From positions 1,554,001-1,618,000 of the forward strand of contig NZ_FXBJ01000002.1 of NCBI RefSeq assembly GCF_900177385.1: a stretch of DNA of 64,000 bases, read 5' to 3'. The notes under the pieces were generated by a model. The model searched no databases, was not told the DNA's origin, and worked only from the letters and a program-made list of their open reading frames with translations. Source of the DNA: Carnobacterium iners. Its GTDB lineage: Bacteria > Bacillota > Bacilli > Lactobacillales > Carnobacteriaceae. Shown here piece after piece: positions 5,225 to 35,255 of this stretch; positions within the stretch are counted from its first letter, which is position 1, and the number at the start of each line of letters is the position of its first letter. The translations under genes were made by a program, and so were the position numbers.

Positions 5225-5809
5225 ATGGCAAAATATAGTTTCGAATTTAAGCTAACGGTTGTTAAGAGTTATTTAGATGGAGCTGGTGGATACAAGTTTT
5301 TGGCTAAAAAATATGGTATCCCAGGAAAAAGTGGATCCCAACTCAAAATATGGGTCGCTAATTATAGACAATTCGGTGAGGATGGGCTAATCAGAAGTAA
5401 AAAAGACAATCATTATTCTGTTCAATTCAAGATAGATACGATAGAGTTGTATCTAACTACTGAGATGTCCTATCAGCAGCTTGCATTGAAGCTCAAGATA
5501 AACAACCCATCCTTAATCGCTAATTGGGTAAGGGCATTTCATGCCGAAGGCATTGAAGGACTCTCAAAACCGAAGGGACGTCCGGCTAAAATGAAAAATA
5601 AAAACACTAACCAACTAAATAAAAACAGCCCTATTAAATCTACTGATAAAAATTCAGAACGGATCAAAGAGCTTGAGAATCAAGTATTATCTTTAGAAAT
5701 TCAAAATGCTTTTTTAAAAGAATTGCGGAGTCTGCAGACCGAGGAAAACCAAAATCAAACGAACCAACTGCAAAAATTATCTACAGACTCCGAGAAAAAT
5801 TCCAATTAA
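5225..5809 (+). CDS. IS150-group transposase OrfA (helix-turn-helix protein)
   Basis: A 194-residue protein with two helix-turn-helix repeats (residues ~1-55 and ~65-120), the second followed by an RPAKMK-type basic stretch, then a coiled-coil/leucine-zipper region (~140-170, SERIKELENQVLSLEIQNAFLKEL). This is the standard IS150-group OrfA, which binds the terminal repeats and oligomerises. OrfB lies one base back in frame; its frame is open upstream of its first ATG and overlaps the 3' end of orfA (reading AKIIYRLREKFQLK). A -1 ribosomal frameshift near the C AAA AAT stretch would give the OrfAB transposase, as in other IS3 elements. No promoter was identified beyond the terminal repeat region. 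Confidence 0.9.
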   Translation: MAKYSFEFKLTVVKSYLDGAGGYKFLAKKYGIPGKSGSQLKIWVANYRQFGEDGLIRSKKDNHYSVQFKIDTIELYLTTEMSYQQLALKLKINNPSLIANWVRAFHAEGIEGLSKPKGRPAKMKNKNTNQLNKNSPIKSTDKNSERIKELENQVLSLEIQNAFLKELRSLQTEENQNQTNQLQKLSTDSEKNSN

Positions 5810-5820
5810 AAGATATCTTA

Positions 5821-6663
5821 ATGACTATTGATTATCCTAAATCAACCTACATGTATTGGCAAAAACGTTTTAAACAGAAGGATCCAGATACAGAGTTAAA
5901 GCAACTTATATTAGAAATACGGGACCAACACAAAGATTACGGTTACCGTCGTATAAAGGCAGAATTAAGAAATCGTGGTTTCGTTGTAAATAAAAAGAGA
6001 ATTCAACGCATTATGCAGGAACTAAACTTACAAGTTACTTCTTTTTCTCGTAAATCACGTAAGTATAGCTCCTACAAAGGAACGGTTGGAAAAGTTACTC
6101 CTAATCGTATCAGCCGCAGATTTGATACAACTATCCCCTATCAAAAGATAACGACGGATACAACAGAATTTAAGTATTACGAAAATGATCCATCTGGGAA
6201 TCTGCAGATAAAAAAATTATACCTTGATCCTTTTATGGACATGTATAATAAGGAGATAGTCAGCTATAAAATCACAAAACAACCGAATGGTATCACTATT
6301 ATGGAGGCTTTAGCCGATGCTATTAAAGCAACTGAAAAGTGTCCATTTAGACGAACTTTCCATTCTGATCAGGGTTGGGCATACCAAATGAAGGCCTACG
6401 GCGCTGAGCTGAGAAAAGATAATATATTCCAAAGTATGTCTAGAAAAGGGAATTGTCTTGATAATTCTCCAATAGAAAATTTCTTTGGACTACTAAAACA
6501 GGAAATGTATTATGGAAATGTTTTTCATAGTTATAGAGAGCTGGAACAAGAAATCATCAAATATATTCACTATTATAATCACGATCGCATAAAAGAGAAG
6601 TTAAATTGGATGAGCCCAGTTCATTATCGGGAACATCATTTCTCTCCTTCTCTAGTAGCTTAA
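5821..6663 (+). CDS. IS150-group transposase OrfB (DDE integrase domain)
   Basis: 280 residues from the first ATG. An HTH_21-type segment (residues ~40-95) precedes an rve/DDE integrase core with Asp in TTDTTEF (~116), Asp in FHSDQG (~177) and Glu in IENFFGLLKQE (~214). The frame is open upstream of the ATG, so the working product is probably the OrfA-OrfB fusion made by -1 frameshifting. All catalytic residues are present and there is no stop, so the copy looks functional. Confidence 0.92.
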   Translation: MTIDYPKSTYMYWQKRFKQKDPDTELKQLILEIRDQHKDYGYRRIKAELRNRGFVVNKKRIQRIMQELNLQVTSFSRKSRKYSSYKGTVGKVTPNRISRRFDTTIPYQKITTDTTEFKYYENDPSGNLQIKKLYLDPFMDMYNKEIVSYKITKQPNGITIMEALADAIKATEKCPFRRTFHSDQGWAYQMKAYGAELRKDNIFQSMSRKGNCLDNSPIENFFGLLKQEMYYGNVFHSYRELEQEIIKYIHYYNHDRIKEKLNWMSPVHYREHHFSPSLVA

Positions 6664-12020: not shown

Positions 12021-12182
12021 ATGCTTAAAAACGGTTTGTTTATTATGGTGGTAGGATTTGTCGCTCTTATTCTAGGATTGGCCAATGCAGATAGTTACCA
12101 ACCCATTACTTTAATCATAGGGATTATTCTAACAATCGCTGGATTTATGATGTATAATTGTGCCGAACAAAAAAGTGAATAA
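12021..12182 (+). CDS. Small two-helix membrane protein (53 aa), hypothetical
   Basis: MLKNGLFIMVVGFVALILGL opens a first hydrophobic helix (residues ~5-24). A short polar link is followed by a second helix, PITLIIGIILTIAGFMMY (~28-45), and a charged tail. GTGAGGA ends 8 bases before the ATG at 12021, while the in-frame ATG at 12012 overlaps that site. A terminator lies 22 bp after the stop. These signals make it a likely real gene. I do not recognise the family; small DUF-type membrane proteins like this are common in lactic acid bacteria. Confidence 0.6.
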   Translation: MLKNGLFIMVVGFVALILGLANADSYQPITLIIGIILTIAGFMMYNCAEQKSE

Positions 12183-12203
12183 AAAATAAAATAGGATAAA
12201 TCG

Positions 12204-12244
12204 AAACCTCTTTGCTTAAAGATAAGTGAAGAGGTTTTTTTTTG
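12204..12244 (+). terminator. Rho-independent terminator after the small membrane protein
   Basis: Arms AAACCTCTT and AAGAGGTTT, then nine or more T. Confidence 0.8.
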
Positions 12245-12323
12245 TTTGAAATAGAAAAGGTTCATAGTAGTAAATATGAGGATATAGAGATGCAATACGA
12301 GTATTTGTGCTTACTCATTTATT

Positions 12324-13880
12324 GGACCTTGCTTTCAAAAACGAATAGTCAATAAATGCTCCATTCTAGGATGGAAATGGACAAGTTTCTCTTGTTTCTT
12401 ATATCACTTGTCCAAAACAAGAGATTGTTGGACAAGTGAAAGTCAAATGACAGGTAGCTGGGCGTATTCGAATCAATGATAGACAAGTGGGCTGTGGTAT
12501 CCTGCTATCTTGTCCGTTTGACTAAAATCAGCTACCTGTTCCTTTATTGGACCTTGCTTTCAAAAACGAATAGTCAATAAATGATCCGTTTTAGAATAGA
12601 AATCGACAAGTTTTTCTTGTTTCTTATATCACTTGTCCAAAACAAGAGATTGTTGGACAAGTGAAAGTCAAATGACAGGTAACTGGGCGTATTCTAATCA
12701 ATAATAGACAAGTGGGCTGTGGTATCACGCTATCTTGTCCGTTTGACTAACATCAGCTACCTATTTATTTATAAGACCTTGCTTTCAAAAACGAATAGTC
12801 TGTAATAAATAATCCGTTCTGGAATAGAAATGGACAAGTTTCTCTTGTTTCTTATATCACTTGTCCAAAACAAGAGATTGTTGGACAAGTGAAAGTCAAA
12901 TGACAGGTAACTGGGCATATTCGAATCAATAATAGACAAGTGGGCTATGGTATCCTGCTATCTTGTCCGTTTGACTAACATCAGCTACCTGTTCCTTTAT
13001 TGGACCTTGCTTTCAAAAATGAATACTCATTAAATACTCCATTCTAGGATGGAAATGGACAAGTTTTTCTTATTTCTTATATCACTTGTCCAAAACAAGA
13101 GATAGGTGGACAAGTGAAAGTCAAATGACAGGTAACTGGGCGTATTCGAATCAATAATAGACAAGTGGGCTGTGGTATCACGCTATCTTGTCCGTTTGAC
13201 TAACATCAGCTACCTATTTATTTATAAGACCTTGCTTTCAAAAACGAATAGTCTGTAATAAATAATCCGTTCTGGAATAGAAATGGACAAGTTTCTCTTG
13301 TTTCTTATATCACTTGTCCAAAACAAGAGATTGTTGGACAAGTGAAAGTCAAATGACAGGTAACTGGGCATATTCGAATCAATAATAGACAAGTGGGCTA
13401 TGGTATCCTGCTATCTTGTCCGTTTGACTAACATCAGCTACCTGTTCCTTTATTGGACCTTGCTTTCAAAAATGAATACTCATTAAATACTCCATTCTAG
13501 GATGGAAATGGACAAGTTTTTCTTATTTCTTATATCACTTGTCCAAAACAAGAGATAGGTGGACAAGTGAAAGTCAAATGACAGGTAACTGGGCGTATTC
13601 GAATCAATAATAGACAAGTGGGCTGTGGTATCACGCTATCTTGTCCGTTTGACTAACATCAGCTACCTATTAACATATTGGACCTTGCTTTCAAAAACGA
13701 ATAGTCAATAAATGATCCGTTTTAGAATAGAAATGGACAAGTTTCTCTTGTTTCTTATATCACTTGTCCAAAACAAGAGATTGTTGGACAAGTGAAAGTC
13801 AAATGACAGGTAACTGGGCGTATTCGAATCAATAATAGACAAGTGGGCTGTGTTATCACGCTATCTTGTCCGTTTGACTA
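12324..13880. repeat. Tandem array of seven ~226-bp units rich in inverted repeats
   Basis: Units begin at GGACCTTGC/AGACCTTGC: 12324, 12549, 12774, 13002, 13227, 13455 and 13680. Lengths are 225, 225, 228, 225, 228 and 225; the seventh stops near 13880 without the closing linker. Units 3+4 and 5+6 are a near-perfect 453-bp duplication. Each unit has five copies, on one strand or the other, of the core GACAAG, arranged as perfect 9-10-bp inverted repeats (TGGACAAGT / ACTTGTCCA / TGGACAAGT). It also has AGTCAAA...TTTGACT and ACAGGTAGCTG...CAGCTACCTGT. No open frame of useful length exists on either strand. Function unknown: structured RNA, protein-binding array or selfish intergenic repeat. 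Confidence 0.95.
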
Positions 13881-13926
13881 AAACGAGGTGCACACAATAG
13901 CACTTAACACCGTACAGTAGAAAAAC

Positions 13927-13960
13927 AGAGCCCAGTACAATAACTCAAATACTGTGCTCT
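13927..13960. other. Hairpin downstream of the repeat array
   Basis: Arms AGAGCCCAGTA and TACTGTGCTCT with one mismatch, followed by ATTCATTTTT. It may terminate transcription coming out of the array on the plus strand, or a readthrough transcript from the tRNA side. Confidence 0.45.
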
Positions 13961-14013
13961 ATTCATTTTTGCATAAGTTACTTCTATCCATCAATAAGTG
14001 CCAACTAATCTAT

Positions 14014-14048
14014 AAAAAAACCCTCTTACAGCTAACTGTAAGAGGGGG
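14014..14048 (-). terminator. Terminator of the tRNA-Arg transcript
   Basis: Arms CCCTCTTACAG and CTGTAAGAGGG. Read on the minus strand it ends in seven T and lies 12 bp past the tRNA 3' end. Confidence 0.85.
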
Positions 14049-14059
14049 GTGAAACGGCA

Positions 14060-14133
14060 TGGTCCTAGAGAGGTTCGAACTCCCGACCTAACGTTTAGGA
14101 AACGTTTGCTCTATCCAGCTGAGCTATAGAACC
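14060..14133 (-). tRNA. tRNA-Arg (anticodon CCT)
   Basis: On the minus strand the 74 bases fold into a full cloverleaf. Acceptor GGTTCTA pairs with TAGGACC, the D-arm is GCTC/GAGC, the anticodon stem AACGT/ACGTT encloses loop TTCCTAA, and the T-arm GGGAG/CTCTC encloses TTCGAAC. The anticodon CCT reads the rare Arg codon AGG. The discriminator base is A and the terminal CCA is not encoded. It is followed by its own terminator and then by the repeat array. Confidence 0.95.
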
Positions 14134-29822: not shown

Positions 29823-29868
29823 ATGATATAATAAGGAAGGAAGTTATTCTAGAAATGAGGTGAGCAGA

Positions 29869-31434
29869 ATGTCAAAACTTGAAGATTTACTGGTTAAACA
29901 GTTAGAACAAAGCAATCAACAAAACGAACAGTTAATGGAACAGCTAGAACTATTAACTGAACAAGTTAAGTTTTTAACTCAAAAATTATATGGTCGTTCA
30001 AGTGAAAAAACTTCTGCTACCAGCGAAAACCAGTTAAATCTCTTTACAGACGACGACCTAAATCTATTTAATGAATCAGAAGTTGAATCTGATAAATCAG
30101 CTCCAGAACCAAAAAATGAAGACGATATCCAACCTATAAAAAAAAAAAAAGGCCATAAAGCTGAAATGATTAAACATCTACCCATCCAAGAAATTCAGTG
30201 CCTGTTGCATGAAAAGGATAGTCAGTGTATCTGGTGCAACTCTGAACTTCGACCTATTGGTCGTGAATATGTGCGAGAAGAAGTAGAATTTATTCCTGCC
30301 CATCTAAAAGTAAAGAAATTTTATCGGTATTCTTATGAATGCCCATCATGTAAAAAAGATGGGGAAGATGTTATTGTAAAAGCAAAAACACCAAATCCTG
30401 TTATTTCAAAAAGTCTTGCTTCGCCTAGTTCTGTAGCTTGGTTACTCTACCAAAAATTTGAGCTATCCTTGCCTTTCTATCGTCAAGAAAAAGAATGGCA
30501 AAGCTACGGTATTACATTAAATCGTGCAACGATGGCTAATTGGGTTATTAAATCTGCAGATCTTTGGTTGAAACCTATTTTTAATATTTTGCATCAGGAA
30601 TTATTTAAAGCCACTTGTATTTTTGCAGATGAGACTCCTATGCAGGTACTTCATGAGCCAGGTAAGTTGGCTACATCTAAATCTTACATGTGGTTGTACC
30701 GTACAAGTGCGAACTCAGATAAACCTACGGTTCTATATGAATACTCACCAACTCGTTCAGGAAGTAACGCCCAACAGTTTTTGAGTGGATTTAGCGGGTA
30801 TCTGCATTGCGATGGATACGATGGTTATAATAAAGTACAATCCATCACACGAGTTGGTTGTTGGGCACATGTGAGAAGGAAATTTCACGATGGTATTTCA
30901 AAAGTAGCCATTATCAAAAAATCTCAGTGTGAAATTGGACAGGATTATTGCGATAAACTCTTCAAAATAGAAAGAGATATCGTACACCTTATTCCTACAG
31001 AGAAGCTTAAAATGCGTAAAGAATTAGCCACTCCTATATTGAATCAGTTTTGGTATTGGGTTGAACAAACAAACGCATTAAAGAACTCTGTCTTAGGAAA
31101 GGCGTTAACGTATGCTAAAAATCAAAAAAAATACTTGATGAACTATTTACTTAACGGAGAATGTCATCTTTCCAATAATTTAGCGGAAAGAAGTATTCGG
31201 CCATTTGTAGTAGGACGAAAAGCATGGAACTTTTCCTCGAGCACCAAGGGTGCAACTTCGAGTGGGATCGCTTATAGTATTATTCAGACAGCACTAGAAA
31301 ATAATTTAAATGCTTATGACTATCTAAAGTACTTATTTGAGGAGTTACCGAATATTCCATTTGAGGAGCAACCTGAGATACTGGAGGGTTATTTACCATG
31401 GAATAATGAAATTCAATTAAAGTTTAAAAAATAA
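29869..31434 (+). CDS. IS66-family transposase TnpC
   Basis: 521 residues, full length. An N-terminal coiled coil (~residues 1-35, Gln/Glu-Leu rich) leads to the KLYGRSSEK block, then a zinc-binding segment with CxxC pairs (CIWCNSEL ~115; CPSC ~157). The DDE core has Asp in FADETPMQVLHEPGK, Asp in LHCDGYDGYNKV and Glu in NLAERSIRPFVVGRKAW. The frame opens at a GTG (29860) that is part of the AGGTG ribosome site, so the ATG at 29869 is the start. It looks catalytically complete, but tnpB is broken, so movement would need help from another IS66 copy. A hairpin terminator (31429-31464) follows. Confidence 0.92.
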   Translation: MSKLEDLLVKQLEQSNQQNEQLMEQLELLTEQVKFLTQKLYGRSSEKTSATSENQLNLFTDDDLNLFNESEVESDKSAPEPKNEDDIQPIKKKKGHKAEMIKHLPIQEIQCLLHEKDSQCIWCNSELRPIGREYVREEVEFIPAHLKVKKFYRYSYECPSCKKDGEDVIVKAKTPNPVISKSLASPSSVAWLLYQKFELSLPFYRQEKEWQSYGITLNRATMANWVIKSADLWLKPIFNILHQELFKATCIFADETPMQVLHEPGKLATSKSYMWLYRTSANSDKPTVLYEYSPTRSGSNAQQFLSGFSGYLHCDGYDGYNKVQSITRVGCWAHVRRKFHDGISKVAIIKKSQCEIGQDYCDKLFKIERDIVHLIPTEKLKMRKELATPILNQFWYWVEQTNALKNSVLGKALTYAKNQKKYLMNYLLNGECHLSNNLAERSIRPFVVGRKAWNFSSSTKGATSSGIAYSIIQTALENNLNAYDYLKYLFEELPNIPFEEQPEILEGYLPWNNEIQLKFKK

Positions 31435-31610: not shown

Positions 31611-34600
31611 TTGAAAGTGAGTAAGAATTTTTTTGGGAAAGTTATAATATTAGCCATGGTAGGTACTTTAGTTGGGCCTAGTTTTTTAAGTACTACTGTG
31701 TCTGCTGTAGAAAACAATAATATAGAAACCTCAGTAAGTACATATAATTTAAATGCAACTCCGATTTCAAAAAAAACGGCCTTCATTAATGCTACATCTG
31801 CTTATGCAACTTCTGTAGCGAACGAATATGGTATCTATCCATCTGTTATGCTTGCACAGGCAGCATTAGAAAGCGATTGGGGAACGAGCATGTTAGCGTA
31901 TAACCCTAATTTTAATTACTTTGGAATAAAAGGCAGTTATAATAATAATTTTTTCACTAAATACACAAGAGAATACAGTGAAAAAGATGGTTGGACTATA
32001 ATAAAAGCAAACTTCAAAAAATATCTTTCGGTTAATTCAGCGTTCATAGATTACGCGGATAAACTAACAAAAGGGCCTGGTTGGGATAACGAAAACGGTT
32101 CATGGGATAAAAATTTTTATAGTGGTACTTGGAGAATAAATGCAGATACTTATAAAGATGCTACTAAATCATTATTAAATAAATATGCTACTGATCCTAA
32201 TTACAATACCAAATTAGATGCGATTATCGAGACTTATAATTTAACTCGTTTTGATAAAATGACATCAATTGATTTAAATACGATTAATTTGGAAGCTAGT
32301 TTGGCTGGAATAAACTATGATGAAGTTATTTCGACTACTGATGTGAAAGACTATTCAATGCACATAAATAGTCAATCTGAAGGGATTTATACTGCTCCCA
32401 AAGATACAGAAAATTCTAAAATACTTTCTACAACTATGGAGTACTTAAATAGAAAAGTGTTTGTTAAAGAAGAAAAGAAAACAAAAAATGGTTCAACTTG
32501 GGCTTATATTACATTAGATGGAAAAGAGCTTGGTTGGATTGATATAAAAGGTTTAACGAGTTTTGATGTAACTTTATCAGAAAAGAACATTAATTACACA
32601 GCTAAGATCACTCGTAAAACGGACGGCATTAATACATTGCCGTATGGATTAGAAGGGTCCAAACTGGTCGTCATGTCATCAGGCTATTATGGCAAGGACG
32701 TAACCATTACCAAAGAAATGGTTACCACGCGAGCAACGTGGTCTTATATTAAAGATCTCGGATGGATTGACAAAAAAGGCTTAGATATTGAAAAAATAAC
32801 AGCCGTTGAGGATACATCTTATTATAAAAGAATTGGTCGTAAAACTGATGGCATTAATACCCAACCGTGGGGGACAGAAGGATTTGCATTAAACTATTTG
32901 TCTTCTAACTTTTTTGGGAAACAAGTAAAAGTAATCAAAGAAGCTACAACCCGTCGTTCAACTTGGGCCTATATTACATTAGATGGAAAAGAGCTTGGTT
33001 GGATTGATATAAAAGGTTTAACGAGTTCTGATGTAACTTTATCAGAAAAAAACATCGATTATACGGCTAAGATCACTCGTAAAACGGACGGCATTAATAC
33101 ATTGCCATATGGGTTAGAAGGGTCCTTGCTAGTATCCATGTCATCAGGCTATTATGGCAAAGACGTAACCATTACCAAAGAAATGGTTACCACGCGAGCA
33201 ACGTGGTCTTATATTAAAGATCTCGGATGGATTGACAAAAAAGGCTTAGATATTGAAAAGATAACAGCCGTAAAGGATACGTCTTATTATAAAAGAATTG
33301 GTCGTAAAACCGATGGAATTAATACCCAACCGTGGGGGACAGAAGGATTTGCATTAAACTATTTGTCTTCTAACTTTTTTGGGAAACAAGTAAAAGTAAT
33401 CAAAGAAGCTACAACCCGTCGTTCAACTTGGGCCTATATTACATTAGATGGAAAAGAGCTTGGTTGGATTGATATAAAAGGTTTAACGAGTTCTGATGTA
33501 ACTTTATCAGAAAAAAACATCGATTATACGGCTAAGATCACTCGTAAAACGGACGGCATTAATACATTGCCATATGGGTTAGAAGGGTCCTTGCTAGTAT
33601 CCATGTCATCAGGCTATTATGGCAAAGACGTAACCATTACCAAAGAAATGGTTACCACGCGAGCAACGTGGTCTTATATTAAAGATCTCGGATGGATTGA
33701 CAAAAAAGGCTTAGATATTGAAAAGATAACAGCCGTAAAGGATACGTCTTATTATAAAAGAATTGGTCGTAAAACCGATGGAATTAATACCCAACCGTGG
33801 GGGACAGAAGGATTTGCATTAAACTATTTGTCTTCCAACTTTTTTGGGAAACAAGTAAAAGTAATCAAAGAAGCTACAACCCGTCGTTCAACTTGGGCTT
33901 ATATTACATTAGATGGAAAAGAGCTTGGCTGGATTGATATAAAAGGTTTAACGAGTTCTGATGTAACTTTATCAGAAAAAAACATCGATTATACGGCTAA
34001 GATCACTCGTAAAACGGACGGCATTAATACATTGCCATATGGGTTAGAAGGGTCCTTGCTAGTATCCATGTCATCAGGCTATTATGGCAAAGACGTAACC
34101 ATTACCAAAGAAATGGTTACCACGCGAGCAACGTGGTCTTATATTAAAGATCTCGGATGGATTGACAAAAAAGGCTTAGATATTGAAAAGATAACAGCCG
34201 TAAAGGATACGTCTTATTATAAAAGAATTGGTCGTAAAACCGATGGAATTAATACCCAACCGTGGGGGACAGAAGGATTTGCATTAAACTATTTGTCTTC
34301 CAACTTTTTTGGGAAACAAGTAAAAGTAATCAAAGAAGCTACAACCCGTCGTTCAACTTGGGCTTATATTACATTAGATGGAAAAGAGCTTGGCTGGATT
34401 GATATAAAAGGTTTAACGAGTTCTGATGTAACTTTATCAGAAAAGAACATTAATTATACAGCTAAGATCACTCGTAAAACGGACGGCATTAATACATTGC
34501 CATATGGGTTAGAAGGGTCCTTGCTAGTATCCATGTCATCAGACTATTATGGTGAAAACATAACGGTTGCCAAAGAAATGGTCACTACTCGAGCAACATG

Positions 34601-35255
34601 GGCACTCATTTATTTTGAAGGTAAAAATTTAGGATGGGTTGATAAAAGAGGATTAAACAGAATTGATTTATTTAAAAATGTTGTTGTTCTTGACCCGGGT
34701 CATGGAGGAACGGATCCTGGGGCACGAGCTGGTGGGATTAATGAAAAAGACTTGAATCTTACTGTTGCAAAAAAAGTGGAATTAAAGTTAGAGCAAGCTG
34801 GTTACGAAGTGGTCATGACTAGATCAACAGATAAATTTCTGGAACTATCTGAAAGAGCTGCTACTGCAAACAGAGCGAATCCAGATATTTTTGTTAGTAT
34901 TCATACGAATTCTTTCAATACATTAGTCTATGGTATAGAAACTTTTTCTTACAATAAAAATGGTGATCCCAATAATATCTTGAAAGCAAATGATCCTTCT
35001 AGATTATTGAATAGTTCGCTATTATCTCAGAATATCCAAAATTCGCTTATTAGTAATACCAACGCATTTAATCGTGGAGCAAAAAAAGCTAATTTTCATG
35101 TTGTAAGAGAAACTTGGATGCCAGCTGTATTAGTTGAGATTGGATTCGTTGATAATACAACCGAGAGAAATAAGTTGGTAACAAATACGTATCAAGAAAA
35201 AATTGCAACAGGTATTGTTGGAGGTATTCAAACTTATTTTAAAAATATTAATTAA
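31611..35255 (+). CDS. Secreted two-domain autolysin: glucosaminidase + GW repeats + amidase
   Basis: 1214 residues. A signal peptide (residues ~1-33, ending near TVSA) precedes a glucosaminidase/GH73-type domain (~55-215) with QAALESDWGTSMLA holding the catalytic Glu. Then come ten GW (SH3-like) modules (~245-1015) in alternating types A (RKTDGINTLPYGLEG) and B (RKTDGINTQPWGTEG). Last is an Amidase_3 domain (~1023-1214) with zinc ligands in LDPGHGG, INEKDLNL and SIHTNSF and catalytic Glu in LVEIGFVDN. It cleaves both glycan strands and the muramoyl-alanine bond; GW modules hold such enzymes on lipoteichoic or teichoic acids. Its setting inside a teichoic acid region fits. The start is TTG, chosen because AAAGGAGG ends 8 bases before it; the nearby ATG is out of frame. 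Confidence 0.92.
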   Translation: MKVSKNFFGKVIILAMVGTLVGPSFLSTTVSAVENNNIETSVSTYNLNATPISKKTAFINATSAYATSVANEYGIYPSVMLAQAALESDWGTSMLAYNPNFNYFGIKGSYNNNFFTKYTREYSEKDGWTIIKANFKKYLSVNSAFIDYADKLTKGPGWDNENGSWDKNFYSGTWRINADTYKDATKSLLNKYATDPNYNTKLDAIIETYNLTRFDKMTSIDLNTINLEASLAGINYDEVISTTDVKDYSMHINSQSEGIYTAPKDTENSKILSTTMEYLNRKVFVKEEKKTKNGSTWAYITLDGKELGWIDIKGLTSFDVTLSEKNINYTAKITRKTDGINTLPYGLEGSKLVVMSSGYYGKDVTITKEMVTTRATWSYIKDLGWIDKKGLDIEKITAVEDTSYYKRIGRKTDGINTQPWGTEGFALNYLSSNFFGKQVKVIKEATTRRSTWAYITLDGKELGWIDIKGLTSSDVTLSEKNIDYTAKITRKTDGINTLPYGLEGSLLVSMSSGYYGKDVTITKEMVTTRATWSYIKDLGWIDKKGLDIEKITAVKDTSYYKRIGRKTDGINTQPWGTEGFALNYLSSNFFGKQVKVIKEATTRRSTWAYITLDGKELGWIDIKGLTSSDVTLSEKNIDYTAKITRKTDGINTLPYGLEGSLLVSMSSGYYGKDVTITKEMVTTRATWSYIKDLGWIDKKGLDIEKITAVKDTSYYKRIGRKTDGINTQPWGTEGFALNYLSSNFFGKQVKVIKEATTRRSTWAYITLDGKELGWIDIKGLTSSDVTLSEKNIDYTAKITRKTDGINTLPYGLEGSLLVSMSSGYYGKDVTITKEMVTTRATWSYIKDLGWIDKKGLDIEKITAVKDTSYYKRIGRKTDGINTQPWGTEGFALNYLSSNFFGKQVKVIKEATTRRSTWAYITLDGKELGWIDIKGLTSSDVTLSEKNINYTAKITRKTDGINTLPYGLEGSLLVSMSSDYYGENITVAKEMVTTRATWALIYFEGKNLGWVDKRGLNRIDLFKNVVVLDPGHGGTDPGARAGGINEKDLNLTVAKKVELKLEQAGYEVVMTRSTDKFLELSERAATANRANPDIFVSIHTNSFNTLVYGIETFSYNKNGDPNNILKANDPSRLLNSSLLSQNIQNSLISNTNAFNRGAKKANFHVVRETWMPAVLVEIGFVDNTTERNKLVTNTYQEKIATGIVGGIQTYFKNIN
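32621..34480 (+). repeat. 465-bp tandem repeat encoding paired GW modules (four periods)
   Basis: The segment starting ACGGACGGCATTAATACATT recurs at exactly 465-bp steps (32621, 33086, 33551, 34016 and, as the start of a partial fifth, 34481 by the GGACGG mark). Each period is 155 codons, one A-type plus one B-type GW module. Middle periods are almost identical at DNA level, including silent sites. The first period differs slightly and the last partial one diverges after about 70 bp. Confidence 0.95.

Follow-up and report, generated by a model that had tools for sequence, protein, structure and literature searches.

In parS, matS and iterons, a short conserved sequence recurs at fixed helical spacing with free sequence between the sites. 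REP/BIME elements are short extragenic palindromes (20–40 nt class) in regular, alternating orientation, which lie mostly between co-directional and convergent genes and feature GTAG/CGTC tags, conserved bodies, RAYTs and reported protein binding sites (PMC3733652, PMC2817692). The palindromes described here resemble them in size class, in alternating regular order (35 nt at a 51/52-nt pitch) and in their location on the 3′ side of genes. MITE-like repeats of Gram-positive bacteria include EFAR of the enterococci, RUP and bcr1 (PMC3733652). No title or abstract among those listed by the literature searches, several of which gave capped lists, describes the present arrays, which is weak evidence of absence because subscription papers were also mostly outside their scope. 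The locus analyzed here lies in a 64,000-nt stretch of Carnobacterium iners DNA (the window) and belongs to a family of scattered intergenic palindrome arrays, within which it has been amplified.

The array at the window locus

TRF called a tandem array with a period of 225, 6.9 copies and 90% matches, as well as a double period of 453 nt. Unit boundaries anchored on CCTTGCTTTCAAAAA (Table 1) agree with the seven head-to-tail units of 225 or 228 bp that a sequence-only reading of this DNA had described, except that the seventh is partial. The same reading had estimated some 35 GACAAG/CTTGTC cores at five per unit, and the count is 21 GACAAG plus 14 CTTGTC; it had also seen no open frame, and the longest stop-free stretch is indeed 62 codons. 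Counted on both strands of the entire window, GACAAG appears 54 times where 23.2 are expected, a number reached in 0 of 100 shuffles, and 35 of these occurrences fall inside the array. Units 3 and 5 are identical over their whole 228 nt, which bears out the earlier view that this is not a CRISPR, and units 4 and 6 differ in 5 of 228 columns, thus indicating that a 453-nt two-unit block was probably duplicated recently. The claim that arms are kept while linkers drift is no more than a trend within the array (variation in 1 of the 35 arm columns and in 22 of the 164 remaining columns without gaps; p = 0.086) and is better supported between species.

Table 1. Coordinates of features at the array locus, numbered from the first letter of the window.
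Feature	Position	Strand	Basis or remark
Small membrane protein gene next to the array	12021–12182	+	
Terminator-like hairpin 3′ of the small membrane protein gene, ahead of the array	12203–12238	+	
Tandem array, seven units	12315–13881	.	TRF and anchored unit map
Unit 1, 225 nt	12327–12551	.	Anchored on CCTTGCTTTCAAAAA
First 35-nt palindrome of unit 1, GGACAAG-N21-CTTGTCC	12379–12413	.	
Equivalents of the first palindrome (starts)	12604 (one mismatch), 12832, 13057, 13285, 13510, 13735		
Strong other-phase hairpin, TCACTTGTCCAA-N12-TTGGACAAGTGA, 12-bp stem	12404–12439	.	
Second 35-nt palindrome of unit 1, AGACAAG-N21-CTTGTCC	12481–12515	.	102 nt (2 x 51) past the first
Equivalents of the second palindrome (starts)	12706, 12934, 13159, 13387, 13612, 13837		
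Unit 2, 225 nt	12552–12776	.	Anchored unit map
Unit 3, 228 nt, same sequence as unit 5	12777–13004	.	Anchored unit map and unit comparison
Unit 4, 225 nt	13005–13229	.	Anchored unit map and unit comparison
Unit 5, 228 nt	13230–13457	.	Anchored unit map and unit comparison
Unit 6, 225 nt, differs from unit 4 at 5 columns	13458–13682	.	Anchored unit map and unit comparison
Unit 7, partial, 199 nt	13683–13881	.	Anchored unit map
Terminator-like hairpin after tRNA-Arg, pointing at the array	14021–14046	−	
tRNA-Arg (CCT), 3′ end facing the array	14060–14133	−	

The 225-nt unit, which had been taken for the element itself, is a composite, and the basic element is a palindrome of 35 nt. Palindromes of the form RGACAAG-N21-CTTGTCY and 16-nt spacers together make up a grid of 51 nt, into which the first three GACAAG cores of unit 1 (12380, 12431 and 12482) fit. 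A unit-length query against the whole of its own genome (G000) gave seven matches, all in the window array; the 35-nt palindrome recurs elsewhere, the unit as a whole does not. These copies are 90–100% identical to the query and not all alike, which argues against an assembly artefact or a chance low-complexity repeat. Tandem repeats do misassemble easily, and the unit count rests on one assembly, but with relatives present as single copies at the corresponding position of other species, the same geometry at many loci and only 0–2 matches for control patterns, we regard such an origin as very improbable. The right arm of the other-phase hairpin in Table 1 includes the middle grid half-site (12430–12436). 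The unit also holds a pseudoknot-type pattern (AGTCAAA..ACAGGTAACTG..TTTGACT..CAGCTACCTGT), for which nested folds were predicted instead.

The small membrane protein has relatives in 13 of the 17 other genomes of the family and no Pfam match. Terminator-like hairpins flank the array on both sides and are directed at it; a further hairpin noted by eye just past the array on the + strand (AGAGCCCAGTA..TACTGTGCTCT, 13931–13968, with a weak T-run) was not among the calls of the terminator scan. Elsewhere in the window, a 465-nt repeat runs in frame (32491–34601; 4.5 copies, 97% matches) within a 1214-aa ORF (31611–35255), the ends of which read by eye like cell-wall hydrolase domains. The window also carries two insertion sequences: an IS3-like ORF pair at 5225–6663, the first ORF of which matches HTH_Tnp_1 (Pfam) and the family name of which comes from reading the sequence, and an IS66 transposase (Pfam) at 29860–31434.

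Geometry and distribution of the palindromes

Each element consists of two half-sites, (R)GACAA(G/A)(T/C), which are inverted relative to each other and together span exactly 35 nt. A free-length search of 18 family genomes with GGACRAR-N{8,38}-YTYGTCC, in which 31 lengths were allowed, returned palindromes of exactly 35 nt in 13 of 17 own-genome cases (5 loci, with the window array contributing six of the 13) and in 26 of 30 cases in the congener G006 (10 loci), against a control of 0 for both exact-length counts. In array-bearing genomes of the family, these palindromes frequently succeed one another at 51 nt. With the same 31 lengths allowed, 42 of the 50 listed palindromes of the distant genome G627 are 35 nt long (58 counted, control 17); they lie at 14 places with a pitch of 52 nt, one of them (L182) inside a reading frame. 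For G706 the figure is 7 of 19, a total that is near its control of 13. Both genomes appear to be Bacillaceae-like, judging from the type of their arms, and the pitch, 51 nt in the own genome, is mostly 52 nt in Bacillaceae-type genomes. When two mismatches were allowed, the own-genome count (109) barely exceeded the control (102), and only rows with 0 or 1 mismatch and clusters are trusted from that search.

In half-site maps of the own genome, a grid of about 51 nt underlies the long-unit arrays as well as those of 51 nt, and one composite unit of 244 nt is common to three loci of this genome and two places in one contig of G007. Besides the window array, long units were noted in L104 (G000:C2:1502500-1506000; about 51/225 nt), L071 (about 245 nt), L106 and L107 (about 244 nt), L108 (about 251 nt) and L109 (about 191 nt).

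Across the order, 59 of 395 genomes contain the exact 35-nt palindrome. Counts are strongest in the own genus (13 and 26) and in a second genus of the same family (g3; 13, 6 and 3), genus g33 of family f4 reaches 4, and the rest have 0–3, with controls of 0–2. The strict tandem pattern was found in only 4 of 398 genomes of the class, namely the own genome (7 forward matches), G484 (36), G627 (18) and G706 (2), and whatever role the arrays have would therefore be dispensable for most Bacilli. In the bacterial genome collection the pattern gave 18 stretches, 13 of which read as arrays: 12 in named records of Neobacillus, Mesobacillus, Robertmurraya, Gracilibacillus, Halobacillus, Evansella and Bacillus sp., and the thirteenth in a Bacilli MAG. 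One accepted array (L125) lies within a mechanical frame of 159 aa, and the other five stretches (L110, L116, L117, L118 and L121) were set aside as coding or chance. N21 and the 16-nt spacer were required in the search that found the named records, where the spacing is not independent evidence, unlike in G627 and G706, which were searched with free length.

Among viral contigs the tandem pattern yielded one stretch with a 16-nt spacer, judged to be chance from its sequence and ORFs (L178), and none with a 17-nt spacer. Phage and plasmid collections and a distant blastn search with one unit gave no match. Weaker unit matches at L010, L011 and L012, which lie in or at coding sequence, are seemingly due to chance, while that at L013 may be a remnant. 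By eye, the second genus also has intergenic palindromes with other arms (CACTCTTCCAT/ATGGAAGAGTG and CACTCCTTCGT/ACGAAGGAGTG; L088, L098 at about 1400–1520, and L024), which are possibly further families of the same kind.

Arm conservation, context and candidate functions

Palindromes of the family lie between the small membrane protein gene and tRNA-Arg in four of the five genomes examined from the genus. The 35-nt palindrome is present at this locus in G007 and, with partly changed arms, in G005; in G006 (L072 1842–2079) a lone GGACAAG palindrome has a different 51-nt array, with GGACGAA arms, next to it. In G004 (L018), other genes follow the small gene, and two 35-nt palindromes set 51 nt apart begin 855 and 906 nt downstream of it, spanning 855–940 nt behind an intervening gene; the tRNA is absent from the downstream stretch examined. 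Six small-gene loci of other genera have no palindromes within 1500 nt.

The 103 elements comprise 36 distinct interiors, and the 36 locus-distinct palindromes have nothing in common but their arms, the core of which was fixed by the search pattern, and an A/T-rich centre; G627 and G706 add 26 distinct palindromes at 17 loci. In orthologous arrays compared with the own genome, the 7-nt arms are 68.5% identical against 55.1% for the rest in G007 (p = 4e-7, pooled) and 63.6% against 46.9% in G005 (p = 1e-6, pooled), a comparison in which aligners may anchor on arms present in both arrays. The arms exceed the rest in 10 of the 12 pairings with a result, significantly in 9; locus 1504k (two pairings) gave no arm conservation, 1643k was not significant and a thirteenth pairing (80k) yielded no result. 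Of 50 mask shifts, one, by a single base, matched the observed value. In an oriented profile of 10 pairings, from which 80k and the two 1504k pairings were excluded, identity is 0.72–0.88 across GACAAGT and 0.47–0.64 just inside it.

The arms also occur in dialects: mostly RGACAAGT in G000, G005 and G007, mainly GGACAAAC in G006, GGACAAAC or GGACAAGC in the second genus, and GGACAAA in Bacillaceae-type loci. Because the searches fixed GACRA, agreement in that core was built in; the positions that follow were left wholly or partly open, however, and these differ lineage-wide across unrelated loci, as would be expected if the preference of a trans-acting factor had changed. Arms conserved above the interior at fixed spacing, the pattern looked for in an array of sites, were found with the exceptions of 1504k, 1643k and G706. 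The combination of fixed length and free interior sequence favours recognition of duplex DNA, and we tentatively propose that the arrays, amplified locally through recombination, are sites for a putative dimeric protein with sequence specificity. The candidate protein would bind the half-sites as a dimer or higher oligomer, and with a pitch of 51–52 bp, about five helical turns, neighbouring sites would be presented on one and the same face of the double helix. Copy number could change by slippage or unequal recombination between near-identical palindromes, a process that would also explain how the higher-order units of 225 nt and the duplicated 453-nt pair arose here.

Alternatively, the palindromes could be transcribed in 3′ untranslated regions, where RNA stem-loops would protect, process or terminate transcripts; we consider this somewhat unlikely. 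The covariance analysis that had been proposed gave a divided result: covariation between the arms at pairs 7 and 8 survives shuffling within lineages (7 and 15 of 2000 shuffles), a hint of base pairing, and pairs 1, 5 and 9 and the other phase stay below that level. In G627 and G706, however, pairing beyond the 6-bp GGACAA/TTGTCC arms is at shuffle level (pairs 7–14), which leaves a loop of 23 nt, and the pooled set has no pairing beyond pair 9, itself marginal. Folding of the interiors is slightly stronger than that of shuffles (mean z about −0.6, n = 51), but equally so on both strands, and the excess of G-T over A-C pairs on the strand of the upstream gene (16 versus 8 in 37 elements) is not significant. 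Good other-phase stems occur at several loci, for instance at 12404–12439. A loop of fixed length and free sequence is nevertheless something that a generic RNA stem does not need. The examined arrays gave no match at gathering score in Rfam 15, and all matches from a permissive Rfam search of the window array were far below gathering scores.

The genomic surroundings bear on both readings. The 43 clusters with both neighbours called comprise 14 convergent, 25 co-directional and 4 divergent cases, a count that takes in lone palindromes at just seven named loci and leaves out three clusters with one neighbour missing. Among the divergent calls, L072 is really convergent, its small membrane gene being under the length limit, and L113 is counted twice; the palindrome-poor divergent stretch L105:1559-1661 was not included, and the clusters L095 and L125 lie inside mechanical reading frames. 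The arrays are thus mostly downstream of genes, as 3′ untranslated elements would be, and a terminator-like hairpin precedes the array at only 16 of the 43 array-facing gene ends, compared with 11 of 43 for the control strand; many arrays could accordingly be transcribed. At the window locus, on the other hand, such a hairpin faces the array from each side. For the proposed protein sites, an intergenic position mostly behind 3′ ends and away from promoters suggests an architectural role, in which the protein would be nucleated on the chromosome, over ordinary promoter control. Linkage to tRNA genes was rejected, with a tRNA in only 2 of 60 scanned array loci (L099 and L072, the latter being the orthologous locus); a tmRNA was found in L111. 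Each of four genomes has a single dif-like site, which in the own genome is located at 1.886 Mb of C2, and clustering at the terminus as for matS was discarded, as the arrays, judged by eye, are not consistently near these sites.

The palindromes could also be selfish or neutral repeats of the REP/MITE kind that spread and then expanded by slippage with no host function. The patchy distribution, the unstable local copy number and the 244-nt unit shared by loci of G000 and G007 are in keeping with this, and the arm dialects could equally mark separate invasions. Interiors that mostly differ between loci, however, do not give the impression of copies of one shared original, arrays have stayed in the same intergenic regions with conserved arms, and viral contigs yielded just one stretch (16-nt spacer) and none (17-nt spacer) with the strict tandem pattern. 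Matches to PF01797 (Y1 transposase) occur in 2 of the 18 family genomes; the own genome has three (L128, L130 and L133 at G000:C2:1059807, 1036462 and 1123283), and the four congeners searched have none. Mobilization of the family by RAYT was rejected, as the array-rich G006, G011 and G013 lack a PF01797 match. Overall, we regard a selfish origin as unlikely. Of the roles suggested by the sequence-only reading, a binding array fits best, a structured RNA is left with no match to a known family, and RNA elements and selfish repeats are still live rivals.

If the arms are protein sites, they would represent a nameless DNA-binding system of Firmicutes with the 35-mer as a ready-made probe, and a natural experiment in which one geometry is kept inside and outside the order while nearly all other bases change. 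In its widest form, which is speculative and unlikely as a whole, a chromosome-architecture system would be scattered through Bacilli: the candidate protein would recognize GACAA half-sites at five-turn spacing and nucleate on the arrays; its preference would coevolve with the entire set of arrays in a genome, and recombination would tune array length. If the palindromes are instead selfish or RNA elements, they form a family with mostly locus-specific interiors that is poorly explained by copy-and-paste spread.

Relation to known systems

Unlike REP/BIME, the present palindromes carry no GTAG/CGTC tag, and their GGAC and GTCC ends pair with each other. They also differ in their fixed length of 35 nt with GGACAA/TTGTCC arms, in interiors that are mostly not common to loci, in the array-rich relatives that have no RAYT match and in their occurrence in Bacilli. 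EFAR is palindromic by its title and, like the present family, occurs in Gram-positive bacteria. Among the 395 genomes of the order, none outside the own family and f4 has more than 3 exact 35-nt palindromes; provided that the sample includes enterococci, this gives no sign of an enterococcal family with such a form in high copy number. MITEs of the EFAR, RUP and bcr1 kind are shared sequences with terminal inverted repeats and a target-site duplication; interiors of the present palindromes differ at most loci.

Regular repeat and spacer lengths and a palindromic repeat recall CRISPR, but most ‘spacers’ of a locus resemble one another and whole units duplicate, as units 3 and 5 show. Unlike parS, matS and iterons, the arrays are dispersed at many loci with no consistent nearness to dif. 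We regard the family as one of the extragenic-palindrome kind, for which protein docking is the leading, if unproven, functional reading.
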